NCBI GenBank assembly: GCA_029820995.1
Contig: JALGUG010000010.1
Span: 1 to 64,000 of the forward strand
Direction of reading: 5' to 3'
Length of the DNA: 64,000 nt
DNA from: Candidatus Zipacnadia bacterium
GTDB lineage: Bacteria; Armatimonadota; Zipacnadia; JALGUG01
Shown here: piece by piece, positions 7,631 through 60,559 of the stretch
How the letters are laid out: every line of letters begins with the position of its first letter
Numbering within the stretch: the first letter of the stretch is position 1
The notes under the pieces: generated by a model
The model's database searches: none
The model's input: only the letters and a program-made list of their open reading frames with translations
What the model was told of the DNA's origin: nothing
Made by a program: the position numbers and the translations under genes

Positions 7631-9607
7631 TTGGCTTCGGAGTTGAGCGAAAGCCGTACCCCTGCGACAACTGACCAAGGCGGCCCGAGCCGAGGAGTAA
7701 CCGGCCGGGCTGTCTTTATTGCCCTCCTGCTGATTCCCCCCAATGCCTATTGGATCACGCAGATGGCCGTCGTCCGCTACGAGGGCCATCCCACGACGGT
7801 GTCGCTGTTTTACAACACCGTCTTCATCCTGCTCGTGCTCATCGGGCTCAATGCGGTCCTGCATCGGTGGCTGCCGCGGATCGCGCTGCACCGTAACGAA
7901 CTGCTGGTCATCTACTTGATGCTGTGCTTGGCCTCCAGCTTGTGTTCGCACGACATGATCCAGGTGCAGGCACCGGAGATCAGCTATCCGTATCATTTCG
8001 CCACGCCCGAGAACAAGTGGGAGGACCTGTTTTTCAAGTACTTGCCCGAGCATCTGATCATCAGCGATCCGGCAATACTCGATCCGGCGTTCGACGGAGG
8101 CACGACGCTCTACACGGCGCAGCGACTGCTGGCCTGGGGACGCCCCGCGCTGTGGTGGACGGCTTTCCTGGCAGTGCTGTGTGGCATGATGCTGTGCCTG
8201 AACGCGCTGCTGCGGCGGCGGTGGATGGAGCGGGAGAAGCTGACGTATCCCATCACGCACCTGCCGCTGGAGATGACCGAGGCGCGCACTCCGCTGTGGC
8301 ACAGTCGCCTGCTCTGGATCGGCTTCGGCGTTGCGGGGGCAATTGATCTGCTGAACGGTCTACACGAACTGTATCCCGCGGTGCCGCTGATCAAGGTGCG
8401 GGTGGTTCATTTCGACGCTTATATGAACTCGCTGTTCGTGGGGGCACCGTGGGTGGCGCTGCGCGGGACGCGGATCTCCTTCTATCCCTTTGCCGTTGGC
8501 CTGGGGCTGCTGCTCCCCACGGACCTGCTCTTCTCTTGCTGGTTCTTCTATCTCTTCTGGCGCGCTCAACGGCTGGTCGCCTTCATGCTGGGATGGAATC
8601 AGATTCCGGGCTTTCCCTTTGTCGAGGAGCAGTCCAGCGCCGCGTACCTCGGACTATGCCTATTCGCGCTCTATACCGGGCGCCAACACTGGCGTGCGAT
8701 CTGGGACCACCTGTGGGGTGCCCGGCGCCTGGACGACCGGGGCGAACCCTTGCCCACCAGCGGCGCCGTCATCGGGCTGTTTGCAGGTGTTTTGTTCCTG
8801 TTTGCTTTCTCCGCCAAGGTTGGGCTGTCCCCCTGGGTCACGCCGCTGTTCTTTGGCCTGTACTTCATGCTGTCGCTGGCGGTAACGCGCATTCGGGCTG
8901 AGCTGGGACCGCCCGCGCACGACCTGCACCGTGGCGGCCCCGACTGGATCCTGGTGAACCTGTTCGGCACGCGCCCCTCGCCCCTGGGCCCGCGCAACCT
9001 CATGGGGCTGTCGGTGTACTTCTGGTTCAACCGCGCCTATCGGGGCCATCCGATGCCCCATCAGCTCGAGGGTTTCAAGATCGCCGAGGTTACGGGCGTG
9101 AGCATGAGTCGGCTCAGCGGCGCCTTTGTGCTGGTGAGCGTGGTGGGGGCCCTGGCAGCCTACTGGGCGCAAGTGCACTCGTACTACTCATACGGGATGT
9201 CGGCGAAGATGTCATTCGTGGCGCAGGTGTTCGGCCGCGAGCCGTACCAGCGGCTTCAGTCGTGGCTGACGGTGGCACACGGACCAGACTATTGGGCGCT
9301 GGGCGCGTACGCTGTGGGAATGGCCTTCACGCTGGTGCTGATGGCGCTGCGAATGCGGTTCGTCTGGTGGCCCTTCCATCCGGTGGGATATGCGATCTCC
9401 AGCAGTTGGTCCATGAACTGTCTCTGGGTGCCCCTGCTGATTGCGTGGATCGCCAAGGTTGTGGTGACTCGCTATAGCAGCTCGAACGTGTTCCGGTCCC
9501 TGATACCGCTGGCGCTGGGCCTAATCCTGGGCGAGTTTGTAATCGGCAGCCTGTGGTGCCTGCTGGGCATTGCCTTACAGATCAACACGTACAGCTTCTG
9601 GGTCTAG
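7631..9607 (+). CDS. Large polytopic membrane protein, DUF6785/DUF6784-like
   Basis: Many hydrophobic helices; family resemblance recalled, not searched. TTG start. Confidence 0.7.
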   Translation: MASELSESRTPATTDQGGPSRGVTGRAVFIALLLIPPNAYWITQMAVVRYEGHPTTVSLFYNTVFILLVLIGLNAVLHRWLPRIALHRNELLVIYLMLCLASSLCSHDMIQVQAPEISYPYHFATPENKWEDLFFKYLPEHLIISDPAILDPAFDGGTTLYTAQRLLAWGRPALWWTAFLAVLCGMMLCLNALLRRRWMEREKLTYPITHLPLEMTEARTPLWHSRLLWIGFGVAGAIDLLNGLHELYPAVPLIKVRVVHFDAYMNSLFVGAPWVALRGTRISFYPFAVGLGLLLPTDLLFSCWFFYLFWRAQRLVAFMLGWNQIPGFPFVEEQSSAAYLGLCLFALYTGRQHWRAIWDHLWGARRLDDRGEPLPTSGAVIGLFAGVLFLFAFSAKVGLSPWVTPLFFGLYFMLSLAVTRIRAELGPPAHDLHRGGPDWILVNLFGTRPSPLGPRNLMGLSVYFWFNRAYRGHPMPHQLEGFKIAEVTGVSMSRLSGAFVLVSVVGALAAYWAQVHSYYSYGMSAKMSFVAQVFGREPYQRLQSWLTVAHGPDYWALGAYAVGMAFTLVLMALRMRFVWWPFHPVGYAISSSWSMNCLWVPLLIAWIAKVVVTRYSSSNVFRSLIPLALGLILGEFVIGSLWCLLGIALQINTYSFWV

Positions 9608-9685
9608 AAGCAGTCTCAAAACTCCTGTGGCAGCGCATTCATGCGCCATGGTCGTTGACCGTTGAGGTTATCACACTACCTCTAG
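9604..9685. repeat. 82-bp palindromic element, copy 1
   Basis: CTAG-bounded TIR-like arms with inner hairpin GCGCAT-TC-ATGCGC; shares core with copies at 48735, 53213, 57977 and 60479. Confidence 0.8.
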
Positions 9686-9701
9686 CAGTCGAGGGACAAG
9701 A

Positions 9702-11402
9702 TCACGGGGCGTCGTCTGTTGAGTCCTTGAGCGCGCTGCCGCTGTCAGTGGTGTCTTGCTGCTCGACCTGCTCGGGCGCAGCCTTGGGCAGGCGGACGGT
9801 GAAGCGGGCGCCCTCACCGGGTCGGCTCTCCAATTCCAGTACCCCGCCGTGCTCCTCCTCCACGATGCGCTTGCACGAGAACAGGCCCATCCCCGTGCCG
9901 GATTCCTTGGTCGTGAAGAAGGGCTGAAACAGACGGGGCAACAGCTCGCGCGGGATCCCGGGCCCGGTATCGGCCACGGCGATCGAGACCTCGTCGGGCT
10001 CTTCGCCCACTTCCACGGTGAGCGTGCCCCCTGTGTTCTCCATCGCCTGGATGGCATTCAGCGTAAGATTGAGCAGGACGCGCTCCAACTCAGTTCGGTC
10101 GGCGACCACGGTGGGTGACGCCGGATGCGGCTCGAACACAACATCCACCTTCTTGTGGTGCGCCTCAGTTCGGATCAGAAACAGCGTCCCCTCGACCACG
10201 GCGTTGATGTCGGTCGGCTGCAAATCGAGCTCGTGGTCGGCGGAGAAGGACAGAAGCCGACGAGTGTACGCGACGAGTTTCGGCAATTGATTGTCCAACA
10301 GGCGGCGGACGTTGGGATCAATATCAACGTCGGCCGTGGCCAGCTCGACCAGCGAGAGCAGAGGTGTGACGATGTTCCCGACATCATGGGCGATGCTGGC
10401 CGAGAGGGTTCCGATGGCGGAGAGCTTCTCAGACACCAGGAGCTGCTCCTGAGCTTGCTGCAGCTCCTCGTAGGCCTTCCTCAGGTCGGTGTACAGCCGC
10501 GCGTTCTCAATCGCCACTGCCGCCTGGCTGGCCAGGCCCGTGAGCAAGCCCAGGTCGGCTTCCGCAAAGGCATTGGGAACGGCCTGAGTGTCCAGGTGAA
10601 TGACGGCCAGGACCTTTTGGTGCCGGATCAGGGGCACACAAATGGCGGAGCGAATGCGAAAGGCGGCTACGCTGGCGCGTTCACGAAACCGCTCATCCTG
10701 CATGGCGTCCGAGGTGACGATGGCAACGCGTTCCTGGATTGCCCGGTCCACCAGCGCCCGGCTGATCGTGATGTCGCCGCTAGGCGAGCCGTCGGCGTGG
10801 CGCACAACCTGGGGGCGCAGCTCGTTGGTCTCCTCGTCCACCAGCATCAGGAAGCCGCGCTGGGCCGGCGTGACCTCCATGATAATGTCCATTAGCCGTT
10901 CCAGCAGCGGCTCCAGTTCGAGCAGGCTGCTCACCGACTCCCCGAACTCGTGGAAGACGCGCAGGTAGCGCTGCAAAGCCTCGACGGTTTGTGGCTCCGC
11001 CTCGGGGCGCCCAGTTTCCACGCGAAAGGGCTGATCGGCCCGCGCGATGGCGGTGACCTCCTGCTGGTGCTCCGTGACGAAACGCACGCCCGCGGGCACT
11101 GCCGGCGCCGGCGTCTCCTCGGCCAACTTCAGGAACGTCCGCCCCACGCGGATGCGGTCGCCGGTCCGGATCTCCGTGGGCGCAAACACCCGGACGCCGC
11201 CGACAAACGTGCCGTTGCCGCTGCCCGCGTCGGAGAGCACGCAAAAGCCTTCCTCAATCTTCAACTCGGCGTGCCGCCGGGAAATACGAGGGTCCAACGG
11301 GAGGCAAACGTCGCAATCGGAGCGGCGTCCGATCGTCGCGATCGGTCCCTCCAGGGAGAACTCCAGCCCTTGCATGGGCCCGTTCAAAACCACCAACTTC
11401 AT
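9702..11402 (-). CDS. FHA-GAF sensor histidine kinase
   Basis: FHA (IGRRSDCDVCLPLDPRISRRHAEL...GSGNGTFVGG), GAF, HisKA (ASIAHDVGNIVTPL), HATPase (NLTLNAIQAM, DTGPGIP, GTGMGLFSCKRI). Start chosen at MKLVVLNG; ORF is open to 11546. Confidence 0.93.
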   Translation of the reverse strand: MKLVVLNGPMQGLEFSLEGPIATIGRRSDCDVCLPLDPRISRRHAELKIEEGFCVLSDAGSGNGTFVGGVRVFAPTEIRTGDRIRVGRTFLKLAEETPAPAVPAGVRFVTEHQQEVTAIARADQPFRVETGRPEAEPQTVEALQRYLRVFHEFGESVSSLLELEPLLERLMDIIMEVTPAQRGFLMLVDEETNELRPQVVRHADGSPSGDITISRALVDRAIQERVAIVTSDAMQDERFRERASVAAFRIRSAICVPLIRHQKVLAVIHLDTQAVPNAFAEADLGLLTGLASQAAVAIENARLYTDLRKAYEELQQAQEQLLVSEKLSAIGTLSASIAHDVGNIVTPLLSLVELATADVDIDPNVRRLLDNQLPKLVAYTRRLLSFSADHELDLQPTDINAVVEGTLFLIRTEAHHKKVDVVFEPHPASPTVVADRTELERVLLNLTLNAIQAMENTGGTLTVEVGEEPDEVSIAVADTGPGIPRELLPRLFQPFFTTKESGTGMGLFSCKRIVEEEHGGVLELESRPGEGARFTVRLPKAAPEQVEQQDTTDSGSALKDSTDDAP

Positions 11403-28107: not shown

Positions 28108-29754
28108 ATGCCGGAAGAGCAAGCTGTTTGTCCACACTGCCAAGCCCCGTTGTCTGGCGGTGACACCACATGTTGGAACTGCGGCCAAGTTGTCGCGAGT
28201 TCTGTGTTTTGCCCCGAGTGCGGGACCAAGCTGGGGCCAACTGGCCGCTGCCTTCAATGCGGCTACTGCGCTGCCCCGCAGCCGTCTCCGGCTGTGGCGC
28301 CGACTGCGACCCCGGCGGCGACAGGCACGCCCACGGAGGCAACCCCGACTGCGTCATCTGCCGAGTTCTGTGAAGTCTGTGGCCACAAGCTGCAAGCCGA
28401 AGCGAAGGAGCTGTGTCCCTCATGTCAGTGCTTCTACGCTCGGGGAACGAACTTCTGTGAAGTCTGTGGCCAGAAGCTCACGCCCGTGGCCGCTTGTAGC
28501 GCCTGTGACGCCCGCGCCGCAACGACCACCGAGGACGGCGCGCCCGACGATGAGCTGACGTCGCTGGCGCGGCGGGCAATCTGGTGGGCGAGTGCCGGGG
28601 AGTTTGACCGTGCGTTGACCGACCTCGGGTCGGTGCTCGACCGTTCACCGCAAGATACCAACGCGCGGCGCTGGGCGGCCCACTGCTATCTTTCCCTGGG
28701 ACACATCGCAGACGCATGGCAGCAGTACGAGTATCTCTTGGCACTGGACCCGTCGGATCAGTGCGCCGCCGATGCCCTGGTACAGATTGACCCGTACCGG
28801 GCCGCCGTCGCGGCGGACCGCGCGGGGCGAGCTTTCGGCCGTGCCCTAAGCTGGCCGGAGGTCCAGGCGAGCCCTTGGGGCGATGTGCAACAACTCGAGC
28901 CCTGGCACTACGAGTGGCCCGCAGACCGGGAGATGCTCAACTACTGGGCTCAGAATCAAGCCATGACCGCTGCCGTCGCCGAAACACTCAGAGCCGTCGA
29001 GGCACCCCAAACGCAACGAGAACTTCTCCTGGGCTGCGTGCGCGTCGGACCGGACCAATTCCCGCAGATTCACGACGTGGCGAACCGCGCAGCCTGGATC
29101 CTTCAGATGCCGCTGCCGGAGGTTTACGTCAAGCCCGACCAGACATGGAACGCCATGGCTCTGGATGCCGGACGAACCTTCGTGATCCTCCATTCCGGCC
29201 TGGTGGACAACATGACGCCCGAGGAGTTACTGTTCATTCTCGGCCATGAGATGGCGCACATCAAGAGCCGGCACACGCTCTATACAGCGGTCGGTCGGGA
29301 ACTCGTCCATCGCCAATACAACCGAGCCCGCACCGTGAGCAGCATCGGGTCAGGCCTCATCGGCATCGCCACCGGAATTGCGGGAGCCGTCATGAAGGCG
29401 CAGGCCGATCGGTTGGCTGTAGAGTGGCTGACCTGGCGACCCAACAAGGAACTCACCTGCGACCGGGCGGGCCTGCTCGCCTGCGGTGACGTGGACGTGG
29501 CCGCCAGGGCAAGTGCCAAGCTCATGTTGGAGAGCACCACGCTCAGCGATCAGCTCAACATTGGCGCGCTGCTGCGTCAATACGACGACGCTCAGGCCCA
29601 AGAGCTCGTGGCAGCGGTGGACCCCAGTGAGGAGCTGGAGAACAGCCATCCCTATACGTGCTACCGCATCCGCATGCTTCAGGCCTGGTCCATGACTAGC
29701 CAATACAAGTCCCTTGCGGCTCTGATCTCGGCGCGCGTCTCCGGCTCGGCCTAG
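28108..29754 (+). CDS. Multi-zinc-ribbon, TPR-like, M48 family metallopeptidase
   Basis: CPHCQ..CWNCG, CPECG..CLQCGYC and two CEVCG(H/Q)KL ribbons; ILGHEMAHIKSRH (HExxH). Confidence 0.88.
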   Translation: MPEEQAVCPHCQAPLSGGDTTCWNCGQVVASSVFCPECGTKLGPTGRCLQCGYCAAPQPSPAVAPTATPAATGTPTEATPTASSAEFCEVCGHKLQAEAKELCPSCQCFYARGTNFCEVCGQKLTPVAACSACDARAATTTEDGAPDDELTSLARRAIWWASAGEFDRALTDLGSVLDRSPQDTNARRWAAHCYLSLGHIADAWQQYEYLLALDPSDQCAADALVQIDPYRAAVAADRAGRAFGRALSWPEVQASPWGDVQQLEPWHYEWPADREMLNYWAQNQAMTAAVAETLRAVEAPQTQRELLLGCVRVGPDQFPQIHDVANRAAWILQMPLPEVYVKPDQTWNAMALDAGRTFVILHSGLVDNMTPEELLFILGHEMAHIKSRHTLYTAVGRELVHRQYNRARTVSSIGSGLIGIATGIAGAVMKAQADRLAVEWLTWRPNKELTCDRAGLLACGDVDVAARASAKLMLESTTLSDQLNIGALLRQYDDAQAQELVAAVDPSEELENSHPYTCYRIRMLQAWSMTSQYKSLAALISARVSGSA

Positions 29755-47697: not shown

Positions 47698-48738
47698 ATG
47701 AAAGAGCGGAATGACTTTGCGCGCCTCCGACACGCGATCCTGCGTCAGGGGAAGCTGGATCGGGCGCCGCTGATTGAGCTACACGTGGACCTGCCGGTAA
47801 AGGAGGCCTTTATCGGGCGCAAGATCCAGACGGCCGCGGATGAAGCCGAGTTCTGGGTGACCGCCGGTTACGATTACGCTCCCATCGCCACCGGGCTCCT
47901 GCAGGTCGGCGGCGTCATGTCGGGCGAGGCCACACAGACGTCCGAAGGCCGATACAGTCTGTACGAAGACCGCACGGAAATCAATTGGGCCGCGGAGGGG
48001 CAGGGCATTATCCAGACCGTGGAGGATGTGGCGGCCTTTCCATGGCCGGACGCCGAGACCCTGGACCTGTCACCAATCACCGAGCTAGCCGACGCGCTGC
48101 CGGCCGAGATGCCCGTCATCGTGATTATCGGCAAGCTGTTCACTCCGGCCTGGATGCTGCTCGGCTTCGAGGGATTTGCCGAAGCCTCGCTCTTCAATCG
48201 GCCCCTGCTCGATGCAATCTTTGAGCGGATTACGGCCTTCCAATTCCGCGTCTTCGAGCGCGCAATCGAGCTGCCGAAAGTGGCCGGGATCTGGCATTCG
48301 GACGACCTGGCCTTCGGCACCGGGCTCCTGGTCTCGCCGGAGGTGTACCGTCACTACGTATTCCCATGGTACCGGCGGATGGGCGAGATCTGCCGCGCGC
48401 GCGACCTGCTGTACATCTACCACTCGGACGGCAACCTACATGAAGTGTTTGACGACCTGATTGCCTGCGGCTTCCACGCGCTGCACCCCATTGAGCCGCA
48501 GGCCATGGATGCGCGGCAGGTCAAGGCACAGGTCGGCGATCATCTCTGCCTGCTGGGCAACATTGACGTGGACCTGCTCGCTCGCGGCACGCCCGATCAG
48601 GTGCGGAAGGCCGTGCGTGCCAATCTGCGCGACCTGACGGCCGACGGGGGATATTGCCCCGGCTCGGCGAACTCGGTAACACACTATTGCCGTCTGGACA
48701 ACTACCGGGCGCTGATTGAGACGGCCTTCGAGGGCTAG
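47698..48738 (+). CDS. Uroporphyrinogen decarboxylase-like (possible corrinoid/thiol methyltransferase) protein
   Basis: URO-D fold signatures: HSDGNLHEVFDDLIACGFHALHPIEPQ, LLGNIDVDLLARGTPDQVRKAV, YCPGSANSV. Confidence 0.85.
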   Translation: MKERNDFARLRHAILRQGKLDRAPLIELHVDLPVKEAFIGRKIQTAADEAEFWVTAGYDYAPIATGLLQVGGVMSGEATQTSEGRYSLYEDRTEINWAAEGQGIIQTVEDVAAFPWPDAETLDLSPITELADALPAEMPVIVIIGKLFTPAWMLLGFEGFAEASLFNRPLLDAIFERITAFQFRVFERAIELPKVAGIWHSDDLAFGTGLLVSPEVYRHYVFPWYRRMGEICRARDLLYIYHSDGNLHEVFDDLIACGFHALHPIEPQAMDARQVKAQVGDHLCLLGNIDVDLLARGTPDQVRKAVRANLRDLTADGGYCPGSANSVTHYCRLDNYRALIETAFEG

Positions 48739-48790
48739 AGGTGCTTGCATGACCCTTGTACGAGCCCCTTCAGGCGCGACCCTCGCCCTC
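48735..48790. repeat. 82-bp palindromic element, copy 2 (degenerate/partial)
   Basis: CTAGAGGTGCTTGCATGACCCTTGTACGAGCCCCTTCAGGCGCGA matches the left half of the other copies. Confidence 0.55.
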
Positions 48791-53212: not shown

Positions 53213-53294
53213 CTAGGAGTGGTTTCAAAACCCTTGTAGCGGCGCGTTTACACGCGACTGTCGTGGCTCGTCGAGGTCTTGAAACCACTTCTAC
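53213..53294. repeat. 82-bp palindromic element, copy 3
   Basis: Arms AGGAGTGGTTTCAAAACC / GGTCTTGAAACCACTTCT (16 of 18 complementary); inner hairpin CGCGT-TTAC-ACGCG. Confidence 0.9.
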
Positions 53295-56200
53295 CCGGAT
53301 ATCCGGGAAGCCCGTTCCGCCATCTTCTCCAACACCCCATAGAACTCGCCCGCGTCAGGGAAGCGCTCTTCCGGCTTCTTGGCCAGAGCTCGGGCCAGCA
53401 TTTCGTCAACACCGGCAGGCGCCCGGGCCCTGAGATCGGCCAACGAGGGCGGCGGCTCGGCCACATGCGCCAGCATCACTGCTATGGGATCGTCAGCCAC
53501 GAAGGGTGGACGGCCGGCCAGGAGATAGTACACGATGCAACCGAGGCTGTAGACGTCGGTAGTCAAGCCGAAGGGTTCAGTGCGGCACTGCTCGGGAGAC
53601 AGAAATCCGGGGTCGCCGAGAGCTTGAACCGGAGAGGTGGCAAGCCGTTGGACGGCCCGTTCGGCCGCCAGGAGCGCGTCATGGTCGGCCAACCGACAGG
53701 TGCGGTCGAAGCCCACCAGCCGGATACTGCCGTCCCGAGCGAACATCACGCTGCGGGGAGACAGATTACGATGCACGATGCCCATTTCGTGCAGGCCATT
53801 GACGGCTTCCGCCAGTCCCGCCGCCACCCGCAACGCTTCAGCCGCGGGCAGGGCTCCCTCCAGCGCGATGCGCTGCTCCAGCGTCCGCTCCAGCAGTTCC
53901 ATGCTGTAGGCGGGCGTACGATCGCCCTCCCCGGGCCACGTCTGAAACTGTTTGACCACCGCGGGCGGGCGGCGCAGCGTACCGGAGAGACTGGCGAGCA
54001 GATTGGTCTCGTTGCGGAACAGCCGCTCCAGGTTCCGGCGGCCGGCTTGCGCTTCTTCGGGATGCACTCCGGGCGCAACCTGCGGCAAGTTCAGTTCTTT
54101 GATCGCGCGCACTTCGGAGAGCGCCCGGTCCACGCCTCGATAGATTCGGGCAAATCGGCCGGTCTTGACGAGCTCGACTTGATCGAAGTGCTCCCACCAC
54201 AGGCCGGGCTCTCCGCTCTCCGCCTCGGGAGGCTGCTCAACTGGTGTGCTCATCACGACGCGTGGGGAGGTGCGCGACAGGCCGGCGGCTTCGATGATTG
54301 CCTCCCGAAACTCCGCGGCCGAACTGTAACGCTGCGCGGGGTCCTTGGCGAGAGCCTTCAAGGCCACCGGATCGGCATCCGGATACAGGCTCTTACGCAC
54401 ATGGCTGGGAGGCTCCGGCTCACCGGTGACGTGCTGCATCATGGTGGCCAGGCGGCTGGCCCCTTCAAACGGCGGTCGGCCGGCGAGCAAGTGGTAGAGC
54501 AGGCAGCCGACCGCATAGATGTCGCTCTGGGGCGTCAGTGGCTCCTTCCGCACGCGCTCCGGCGGACTGTAATACTGGTCCCCGACCAGGGCGGCACGGC
54601 TCTCCCCGCTGGCCGCCTCAGCGATGGCGGCATAGCCGAAGCCGAACAGTAGGACGTGTTGATCTTCAGTCAGCAACACATTGCGCGGCGCCAGATCGCC
54701 GTGGAGAAACCCCGCCTCGTGAGCTGCCTGCAGGCCACGCAGCGTCTCCGCCACCAGCGAGCCGGCTTCCTGCAGCGACAGCGCCTCTCGCTCTCGCAGT
54801 AACTGCGCCACCGTACGTGCCGCGGGCACTAGGTGCGCGATGTAGAAGGTCTCATTCGATTCGCCATAGGCAGCGATGGGGGCGATAGTCTCATGCTTCA
54901 ACTCCGACAGCGCAGCAACGTGTTCCGCGAACAGCTTCGGAAAGCGCAGAGCGTCCGAGTACTCGGGTTTGAAGACTGCGACCAGAGCCCGCTGCCCGCT
55001 GGAGGCCTGGGCCTGATGGATCGTATAGGTCTCCGCCTCCGCCGTCGGCTCCAAGAGCCGGTAGTCGCCACACTGCAGTTCTCGGGGCTGATTGCTTAGA
55101 GCGGCCAGGCGCTCCTGGACATCAGCATACCCCGGCTCGCGGAGGGCAACTTCCTGGAGGATCCGCGTGGCCTCTGCCAGTCGTCCCTCTTGCTCGCACC
55201 CCACGCCGGCGACGTACAGAACGCTGGTCGCTTCGTCGCTGGGCGGCAGATCGCGCAGGTAGCGGTACGCCAGGTAGAACTGCTCTTCGGTGACCAGAGA
55301 CTGCCCCAGGAGAATAACTGTCTCCTCGTCGTCCGGCGCGGCCTCGGCGAGGGGCAGCAAGTACTGAACCGCCTTCTTGTTCAGACCGTGCTCATGGCAC
55401 AGCCGACCCAGGAAGCTCTGCAGCCGCGGGTTGTCCGGTTCCACTTGTAGGGCCGTCTCGAGTACGGGAACCGCCTCTTCGGGAGCCTGCTCACCGTGCT
55501 GCATATAGTACCGGGACAACAGCGAGGCCATTTGCTGGACTTGCTCGGCGTTCTCGCACTGCCGGAACCAGGCGTGGTAGGCTTCGAGCGCGGGCGGACT
55601 GGTCGCGTTGGCGGACAGATACCCCTCGGCCAAGCGAGCTAGCGCCGAGATATTCTGTCGGTCTGCTTGCCACAGCCTTTGGTACAGGTCAACTGCCCTC
55701 TCGCTGCCCGGCTGCACCCGCCAGAACGCATCAGCCACTCCGGCCAGCAGCTTCTGATTGTCGGGGGAGCGCTCCAGCGCTCGCTCATACAAGCGAAAAC
55801 TCTTCGGGTCTGTACGTCCCATCCGGAGAACCAAATGGGCCGCCAAGACGGGGAAGGGACGAGCGGCCAACTCGGCCAAGCTCGGCGCGAACAGTACCGC
55901 CAAAAGGACCAGTAAGAACAACAGGAGCTTGCCGTAGCCGTGGAGCGCGGCGCGTGACCAGGCAATCCACCGCGGAGGCGCCTCGCCGCCCAGCGCGTGC
56001 ACCAGCACGGTCGCGCTGCCAACCTGTGCGGGCGTCTCGGCTAGCTGCAGGGCCGCGGCCGCATGCTTCAGGCCCCGAGCCTGGTCGCCTGACTTGGCAT
56101 GGCAAAGCTGCGCCAGTGCGTACTGCGTCTCAAAGCGGTCGGGGGATTGCTCAAGGCTTCTACTCCAGTACTTCTCGGCCTCGTCGAGCTTCTCCGCCTT

Positions 56201-56698
56201 CGCGGCGATCAGCCCCAGTTCGTACCAGCACAGCGGTCCCTGCTTGTTGTGTGCTCGGAGAAAGTTCTGGAGCGCTGCTTTGGCCTGATCGGTCTTGCCC
56301 TGCTGCGCCCGGAGGCGTCCGTCCAGAGCAGCAAGCGCGTCACTGTCAGGCGCGTTCTTGCGCGCCGCCTTCACCAGCTCGCGGGCGATGTCGCTCCGGC
56401 CCTGCCGAAGCAGGCTCTGCCCCACTTCCGCCACGAGCTCGGCGTAGGCCTCCAAAGCGGCCTTCTGCCCCTCCGGGTCTGCCCCCGTCCGCTTCAGTTG
56501 CCGAACCGTCTCCAGGTGTTTCCCGGCAGCAGAAGCGATCAGATTGGAGCCCACGCCTGCGAGGCCGATTCTCGTCAGGCTGCGCCCCAGCCGAATCTCC
56601 ATCGCGGAGACATCAAAGTGCAGTTGCACGCCTACAGCGAGCGCCCACAGGAGCAGCAGGACCAGCGCGGCGAGGAGGACTATCTTGGGCTTGGCCAT
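53291..56698 (-). CDS. Membrane TPR protein with two Ser/Thr-kinase-like (probable pseudokinase) domains
   Basis: N-terminal TM, TPRs, second TM (LLLFLLVLLAVLFA), kinase-like domains with HGDLAPRNVLL...GFG and HRNLSPRSVMF...GFD. Confidence 0.88.
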   Translation of the reverse strand: MAKPKIVLLAALVLLLLWALAVGVQLHFDVSAMEIRLGRSLTRIGLAGVGSNLIASAAGKHLETVRQLKRTGADPEGQKAALEAYAELVAEVGQSLLRQGRSDIARELVKAARKNAPDSDALAALDGRLRAQQGKTDQAKAALQNFLRAHNKQGPLCWYELGLIAAKAEKLDEAEKYWSRSLEQSPDRFETQYALAQLCHAKSGDQARGLKHAAAALQLAETPAQVGSATVLVHALGGEAPPRWIAWSRAALHGYGKLLLFLLVLLAVLFAPSLAELAARPFPVLAAHLVLRMGRTDPKSFRLYERALERSPDNQKLLAGVADAFWRVQPGSERAVDLYQRLWQADRQNISALARLAEGYLSANATSPPALEAYHAWFRQCENAEQVQQMASLLSRYYMQHGEQAPEEAVPVLETALQVEPDNPRLQSFLGRLCHEHGLNKKAVQYLLPLAEAAPDDEETVILLGQSLVTEEQFYLAYRYLRDLPPSDEATSVLYVAGVGCEQEGRLAEATRILQEVALREPGYADVQERLAALSNQPRELQCGDYRLLEPTAEAETYTIHQAQASSGQRALVAVFKPEYSDALRFPKLFAEHVAALSELKHETIAPIAAYGESNETFYIAHLVPAARTVAQLLREREALSLQEAGSLVAETLRGLQAAHEAGFLHGDLAPRNVLLTEDQHVLLFGFGYAAIAEAASGESRAALVGDQYYSPPERVRKEPLTPQSDIYAVGCLLYHLLAGRPPFEGASRLATMMQHVTGEPEPPSHVRKSLYPDADPVALKALAKDPAQRYSSAAEFREAIIEAAGLSRTSPRVVMSTPVEQPPEAESGEPGLWWEHFDQVELVKTGRFARIYRGVDRALSEVRAIKELNLPQVAPGVHPEEAQAGRRNLERLFRNETNLLASLSGTLRRPPAVVKQFQTWPGEGDRTPAYSMELLERTLEQRIALEGALPAAEALRVAAGLAEAVNGLHEMGIVHRNLSPRSVMFARDGSIRLVGFDRTCRLADHDALLAAERAVQRLATSPVQALGDPGFLSPEQCRTEPFGLTTDVYSLGCIVYYLLAGRPPFVADDPIAVMLAHVAEPPPSLADLRARAPAGVDEMLARALAKKPEERFPDAGEFYGVLEKMAERASRISG

Positions 56699-57416: not shown

Positions 57417-57980
57417 ATGTCCTCTCGACCGTCTCGCAGCCGTGCTTTAGTCCTTTGCACCCTCTGCTGGTTGCTTTACCCGGTCACCGGCGGCACACAA
57501 CCGGGACCGCATCCCCCCACTACCCCTCTGAATGGCAGTTTCGAAAATCTAGACCCAACCACGGGTCTACCCGCACAGTGGACGCCCTGGACCAAACCCG
57601 TAACCTGCTCATACAGCCTGGCACGCGCCCACTCCGGCGTCGCCTGCGCGCAAGTCACGGACTTCAATCCTACGCAGAGCCAAGGCTTACGCTCGGCCCG
57701 AATGCCGATCAACAACGGCCGCCGGTATCGAGCTACAGCCTTCGTCTTCGTTGATGATCTCCAGGCCGGCGGGTTCGCACTGTACCTCGAGTTTTGGGCT
57801 GGAAGCCGACGCCTAACGAGCGTCAGCACGTACACCAGCCGGCGCGGTGCCTGGGTGCCCCTCAAGGTGGAAGCCGTCGCACCGCGTCGGGCCACGGAAG
57901 CAACAGTACTCATCTATGGCTCTTCAGCCACTGTGGGCCGAGCCTATTTCGATGACGTGCTACTGGCCGAACTCCCGTAG
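57417..57980 (+). CDS. Secreted carbohydrate-binding-like protein
   Basis: Hydrophobic N-terminus; LNGSFENLDPTTGLPAQWTPW and AYFDDVLLAEL typical of galactose-binding-like/CBM folds. Confidence 0.75.
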   Translation: MSSRPSRSRALVLCTLCWLLYPVTGGTQPGPHPPTTPLNGSFENLDPTTGLPAQWTPWTKPVTCSYSLARAHSGVACAQVTDFNPTQSQGLRSARMPINNGRRYRATAFVFVDDLQAGGFALYLEFWAGSRRLTSVSTYTSRRGAWVPLKVEAVAPRRATEATVLIYGSSATVGRAYFDDVLLAELP

Positions 57981-58059
57981 AAGTTGTTTCACAACCCCGA
58001 TGGGAGCGCCCTTAGGCGCGATTGTCCTTGGTCCCCGAGGTCATGAAGCCACCCCCAGG
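57977..58059. repeat. 82-bp palindromic element, copy 4
   Basis: GTAGAAGTTGTTTCACAACC...GAGGTCATGAAGCCACCCCCAG; inner hairpin GCGCC-CTTA-GGCGC. Confidence 0.8.
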
Positions 58060-60478: not shown

Positions 60479-60559
60479 CTGGAGGCTGTTTCATAACGCC
60501 TGTACGAGCCCTTTCAGGGGGATTGTCGTTGATCGTTGAGGTTATGAAACCACCTCTAG
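60479..60559. repeat. 82-bp palindromic element, copy 5
   Basis: GAGGCTGTTTCATAACG...GAGGTTATGAAACCACCTCTAG; inner hairpin CCCT-TTC-AGGG. Confidence 0.9.

Follow-up and report, generated by a model that had tools for sequence, protein, structure and literature searches.

A CTAG-bounded repeat in Candidatus Zipacnadia, very probably an IS5-family MITE with a captured GTAG-REP hairpin

The repeat and its copies in the window

We consider a 64-kb stretch of genomic DNA (64,000 nt, called the window throughout) from a bacterium of Candidatus Zipacnadia, a class proposed within Armatimonadota (PMC10290634). Among named proteins, the one closest to the host's GltX is from a Candidatus Zipacnadia MAG, with 59% identity. 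In the window, an 82-nt repeat with the consensus CTAGAAGCTGTTTCATAACCCCTGTAGGAGCGCCTTCAGGCGCGATTGTCGTTGGTCGTTGAGGTTATGAAACCACCTCTAG is present in four full copies and as one 5' half. The copies are given in Table 1 together with their inner hairpins and with the ORFs whose stop codons lie in their ends. The ORFs, here and below, come from a simple codon model, for which the window served as training set, and not from a full gene finder. A preliminary description of this DNA had reported palindromes in all five copies and had placed the boundaries of the first copy at 9604-9685; the palindromes are found where it had put them, and the boundaries are correct.

Table 1. Copies of the probable MITE in the window, with the hairpins that they contain and the stop codons at their ends
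Feature	Position	Strand	Details	Stop codon at the copy end
Full 82-nt MITE copy	9604-9685	+	left terminal repeat ~9604-9623, right ~9664-9685; both ends read CTAG	left TAG is the stop of ORF 7631-9607 (+)
Embedded GTAG-type REP	9627-9649	+	tag is GTGG in this copy; hairpin GCGCATTCATGCGC at 9633-9646	
5'-half copy	48735-48780	+	left terminal repeat and REP only; GCC..GGC retained in the hairpin	TAG is the stop of ORF 47698-48738 (+)
Full MITE copy	53213-53294	+	hairpin CGCGTTTACACGCG at 53243-53256	right end, decayed to CTAC, contains the TAG stop of ORF 53291-56698 (-)
Full MITE copy	57977-58058	+	hairpin GCGCCCTTAGGCGC at 58006-58019	left TAG terminates the weakly supported ORF 57702-57980 (+)
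Full MITE copy, 81 nt	60479-60559	+	hairpin CCCTTTCAGGG at 60509-60519	right CTAG supplies the stop of a minus-strand ORF ending at 60556

Two other features of the window may be recorded here. The tetranucleotide CTAG occurs 53 times in the whole window, against ~209 occurrences expected from base composition. A near-identical 26-nt direct repeat (28366-28391 and 28453-28478, 87 nt apart) lies within the ORF 28294-29754 and resembles a repeated zinc-ribbon motif.

Abundance in the host genome

Using a covariance model built from 27 copies, we find at least 150 copies of ~82 nt in the host assembly (5.5 Mb in 481 contigs), all of them matches with E ≤ 3.1e-4. The terminal motif gives 83 matches in the same genome, 43 on one strand and 40 on the other, against 0 for the reversed control. 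This abundance is far beyond chance, and the unit that is repeated is the full 82 nt including both ends. The repeat is multi-copy, dispersed and non-coding and has no transposase of its own, as is characteristic of a MITE. An integron attC reading was dropped, since the copies are scattered, occur in either orientation and form no array. A scan for the exact pattern in a contig collection that possibly excludes this genome and very near ones gave no match elsewhere.

Terminal repeats shared with IS5-family transposons

Do the ends of the repeat belong to a known kind of mobile element? The nearest comparison genomes share only the class with the host, and relatives in this class carry elements that have the same ends but different interiors. 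Three of these are complete transposons that encode an IS5-family transposase (888 bp in G019, L096:633-1520; 906 bp in G030, L125:1051-1956; 871 bp in G039, L127:1482-2352), and in most cases the ends of these elements differ from the consensus pattern by 0-3 mismatches in 20 nt. The G019 transposase, with PF13340 and PF01609 (DDE), is split over two overlapping frames, and its joined halves match the NCBIfam model transpos_IS5_3 with an E of 8.5e-69. The repeat and the IS5-family transposons of the same class have their terminal inverted repeats in common, and we therefore assign the repeat to the MITEs of that family. The IS5 transposons bear the ends without the REP hairpin that is described below. 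Our preferred explanation, which we consider very probable, is that the element is a CTAG-bounded IS5-family MITE of ~82 bp, with terminal repeats of ~20 bp, that captured one GTAG-REP hairpin and then spread.

This element resembles known IS5-family MITEs in being short, in having no ORF, in sharing its termini with the IS5 transposons of related genomes, and in its high copy number, CTAG ends and intergenic location. It differs from them in having a REP hairpin at a constant position, and in residing in a host assembly that has no matching intact transposase, although an autonomous partner is usual rather than required. In that assembly there is no PF01609 match, and the only related sequence is a DUF4096 fragment (G000:C34) that lacks these termini. 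The absence of a transposase from an assembly of 481 contigs is no proof of absence; with neither a matching intact transposase nor a RAYT gene found, the MITE family looks orphaned in the host. Mobilisation of the IS630 type, with a CTAG/TA target, was considered and rejected, there being no PF13358 match.

MITEs with the same ends are also found in other lineages of the class. In G043, which belongs to another family, an 82-nt MITE contains GTAG-GGCGGGCTTCCAGCCCGCC, and this hairpin is also free-standing there; the MITE of G016, read by eye, contains a third GTAG-REP, which lies on the other strand. In G045 (L097, L103, L117, L120, L123), many contigs end in a longer MITE that shares these termini and has hairpins of the GGGGACAGTCCC type, a position that suggests near-identical copies and recent activity there. 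G043 has, in addition, tandem arrays of GTAG-REPs with several stem types (L350:155-324, L350:19602-19856, L349:15-77 and L361:14236-14323).

CTAG ends and gene stop codons at the sites of the copies

We turn to the sites that the copies occupy in the host. None of the 133 copies whose flanks are adequate falls within a called ORF, and in 74 of them an end TAG serves as the stop codon of an adjacent gene. Such stop-codon sites are commoner for the copies than for free noncoding CTAGs (20 of 73, p 1e-4). This excess, though real, is moderate; it may be caused by selection against other intergenic sites, and it counts against our preferred explanation. The flanking genes are convergent at 35 sites, tandem at 82 and divergent at 12. 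When all copies are counted, stops coincide with the left end 40 times and with the right end 41 times, so there is no orientation bias toward the adjacent gene. The element has CTAG at both ends, in register with the stop codons, an arrangement in which a duplication and a conserved palindromic end are not distinguishable. No empty site was seen in the comparison genomes.

The transposons take similar positions. That of G019 is placed precisely at the TAG stop that closes an L11 (rplK)-like ORF. A relative of the transposon in Deinococcus is bounded by CTAG and lies directly beside a gene stop; a second relative looks similar, and a third gave no clear ends. In the literature that we searched there is no direct precedent for IS5 MITEs at CTAG or at stop codons. 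For REPs, ends that serve as TAG stop codons have been reported earlier (PMC3733652).

The embedded REP

Within the terminal repeats, a GTAG tag stands beside a GC-rich hairpin, and this combination is repeated and intergenic. It shares these features with the GTAG-tagged REPs (PMC3733652), which likewise have hairpins with variable stems, lie mostly downstream of genes and often supply TAG stops. The tagged hairpin motif gives 161 matches in the host, against 1 in the reversed control, and it is also free-standing at host loci outside the MITE. Here, in contrast to the published REPs, the REP sits within IS5-type terminal repeats and has been multiplied as part of that unit, and the RAYT gene that usually accompanies such REPs was not found in the host. 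REPs inside longer palindromes are known from GTAG-15 of A. variabilis and CGTC-1 of H. neapolitanus (PMC3733652).

The hairpin could itself have been the mobile unit. In this reading, a RAYT (an IS200-like single-strand transposase) would have recognised the GTAG hairpin and spread it as a REP/BIME-type element, with the outer palindrome as a mere flank. The GTAG tag ahead of a GC-rich hairpin, the REP-like copies outside the MITE and the presence of PF01797 (RAYT-type) genes in 35 of the 46 class genomes would all agree with such an origin. We nevertheless regard it as extremely improbable, because the repeated unit is the whole 82 nt with both ends, the same ends bound IS5 transposons that have no REP, the host assembly has no match to PF01797, and the GTAG tag (~74-91% conserved per base) is less conserved than the hairpin core. 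That the host has free-standing GTAG-REPs despite having no PF01797 match is noted as an observation of its own.

In the alignment of 133 copies, conservation is 94% in the REP core (9632-9649 in the window example) and ~79-83% in the linkers and transposon ends; the higher conservation of the core is also seen in copies that were detected by their right end only. Uniform decay does not account for this difference, which is a point against our preferred explanation. Pairing is not its cause either, since conserved bases of the 3' arm lie opposite variable partners in the 5' arm (columns 69 versus 48). A possible cause is sequence constraint, or conversion from free REPs. The latter can be framed as a refinement of the preferred explanation, in which gene conversion, with free-standing REPs as donors, would have replaced part of the REP cores of the MITEs, and this would account for the turnover of the hairpins as well as for the conserved core (94% against ~80% elsewhere). 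Free-standing REPs with the same core do exist, and the G043 backbone of the same length and ends holds another REP. The refinement is unlikely, however: among the matches read, free-standing REPs are few relative to MITE copies, and the C-G apex that is common to 11 of the 12 copies with a 9-nt insertion is as would be found for inherited haplotypes.

Covariation of the hairpin

The preliminary description had stated that the sequence of the inner hairpin changes between copies while the pairing is kept, and had proposed a covariation check with more copies. We read 143 copies and aligned 133 (70-100 nt), and the covariation statistics were obtained on 132-133 of them. The statement is true of the copies in the window; over the larger set, covariation is limited to the apex pair and a weak signal at one more, and the remaining pairs decay one side at a time. 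Covariation is significant, as the check was to decide, but it is restricted to the apex pair.

At the apex (alignment columns 52-65), 111 copies have a Watson-Crick pair (CG 69, GC 35, AT 7), against 57 predicted by independence of the columns. The pair 50-67 covaries weakly (99 Watson-Crick against 89 expected), and the pairs 48-69, 49-68 and 51-66 do not depart from expectation; in these three, 53 changes are one-sided and none is a compensatory Watson-Crick change. For all 20 outer pairs, the pairing is close to the independent-column expectation, the outer stem having 1616 Watson-Crick cells versus 1605 +/- 13 in shuffles (p 0.2). Under a tree-based null with reassigned substitutions, columns 52-65 alone are significant (E below 0.01), on a tree that is weak, as it derives from 82 columns. 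The automatic RNAalifold consensus of 27 copies retains only three basal inner pairs. The covariation across the helix beyond the null that would mark a structured RNA is therefore limited to the apex and one weak pair, with none in the outer helix.

A column-permutation test finds, beyond the apex pair, only the linked columns 52-55 and 55-65 and the adjacent 73-74. Column 55 is an unpaired loop base, which is linked to the apex pair as C-TTCA-G versus G-TTTA-C. This linkage, together with the C-G apex of the 9-nt insertion variants, argues for a few founder haplotypes and against pairing kept copy by copy. The apex variation points to inheritance from two or three founder or parent haplotypes rather than to maintenance by RNA selection.

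A structured RNA or bidirectional 3'-end element (a terminator or mRNA stabiliser), kept by folding selection at gene ends, would explain the prevalence of convergent and tandem over divergent sites, the covariation of the apex pair beyond the tree-based null and the conserved REP core. We judge this very unlikely in view of the outer stem and the three of five inner pairs at expectation, the conserved 3'-arm bases opposite variable partners, the linkage of the apex pair to an unpaired base and the even distribution of stops over the two ends. Furthermore, the inner pairs are kept no better at stop codons (4.19 of 5) than in the other copies (4.17, p 0.82), no terminator-like site with a T-tract is present at 9300-9900, and an Rfam scan of the window gave no match. 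The preliminary description had offered both transposition recognition and selection on folded RNA (3'-end processing or termination) as reasons for the pairing. The former is borne out, the outer ends being terminal inverted repeats of the IS5 family, whereas selection on folded RNA is not supported: compensatory changes are missing from three of the five inner pairs, and over the 20 outer ones they do not exceed expectation.

Model and significance

Combining the ends, the sites and the hairpin classes, we propose how the MITE may have spread. An IS5-type transposase acting in trans would have inserted the copies at CTAG and duplicated the CTAG, and insertion at a C-TAG stop codon would leave the gene intact. 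The transposase may since have been lost, or may have been missed by the assembly. The hairpin classes would go back to two or three source copies that differed in their REP apex (C-TTCA-G, G-TTTA-C and A-TTCA-T), and the copies would afterwards have diverged by drift. The hairpin is then presumably present since REPs are hairpins, and not through per-copy selection to fold as RNA.

The same ends enclose different REP hairpins across lineages of the class, and the core is constrained while the ends decay, which suggests a role of the MITE as a carrier that exchanges or keeps GTAG-REPs, with the host now using the delivered REPs at gene 3' ends; we consider this role unlikely.

The analysis identifies autonomous IS5 partners of the MITE in relatives of the host. 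It also illustrates that apparent hairpin covariation among repeats can be inherited from a small number of haplotypes that founded a mobile element family, rather than stem from a selected RNA structure. For a poorly known bacterial class, the repeat provides a clear case of a MITE that brings REP hairpins to gene ends via CTAG stop codons.
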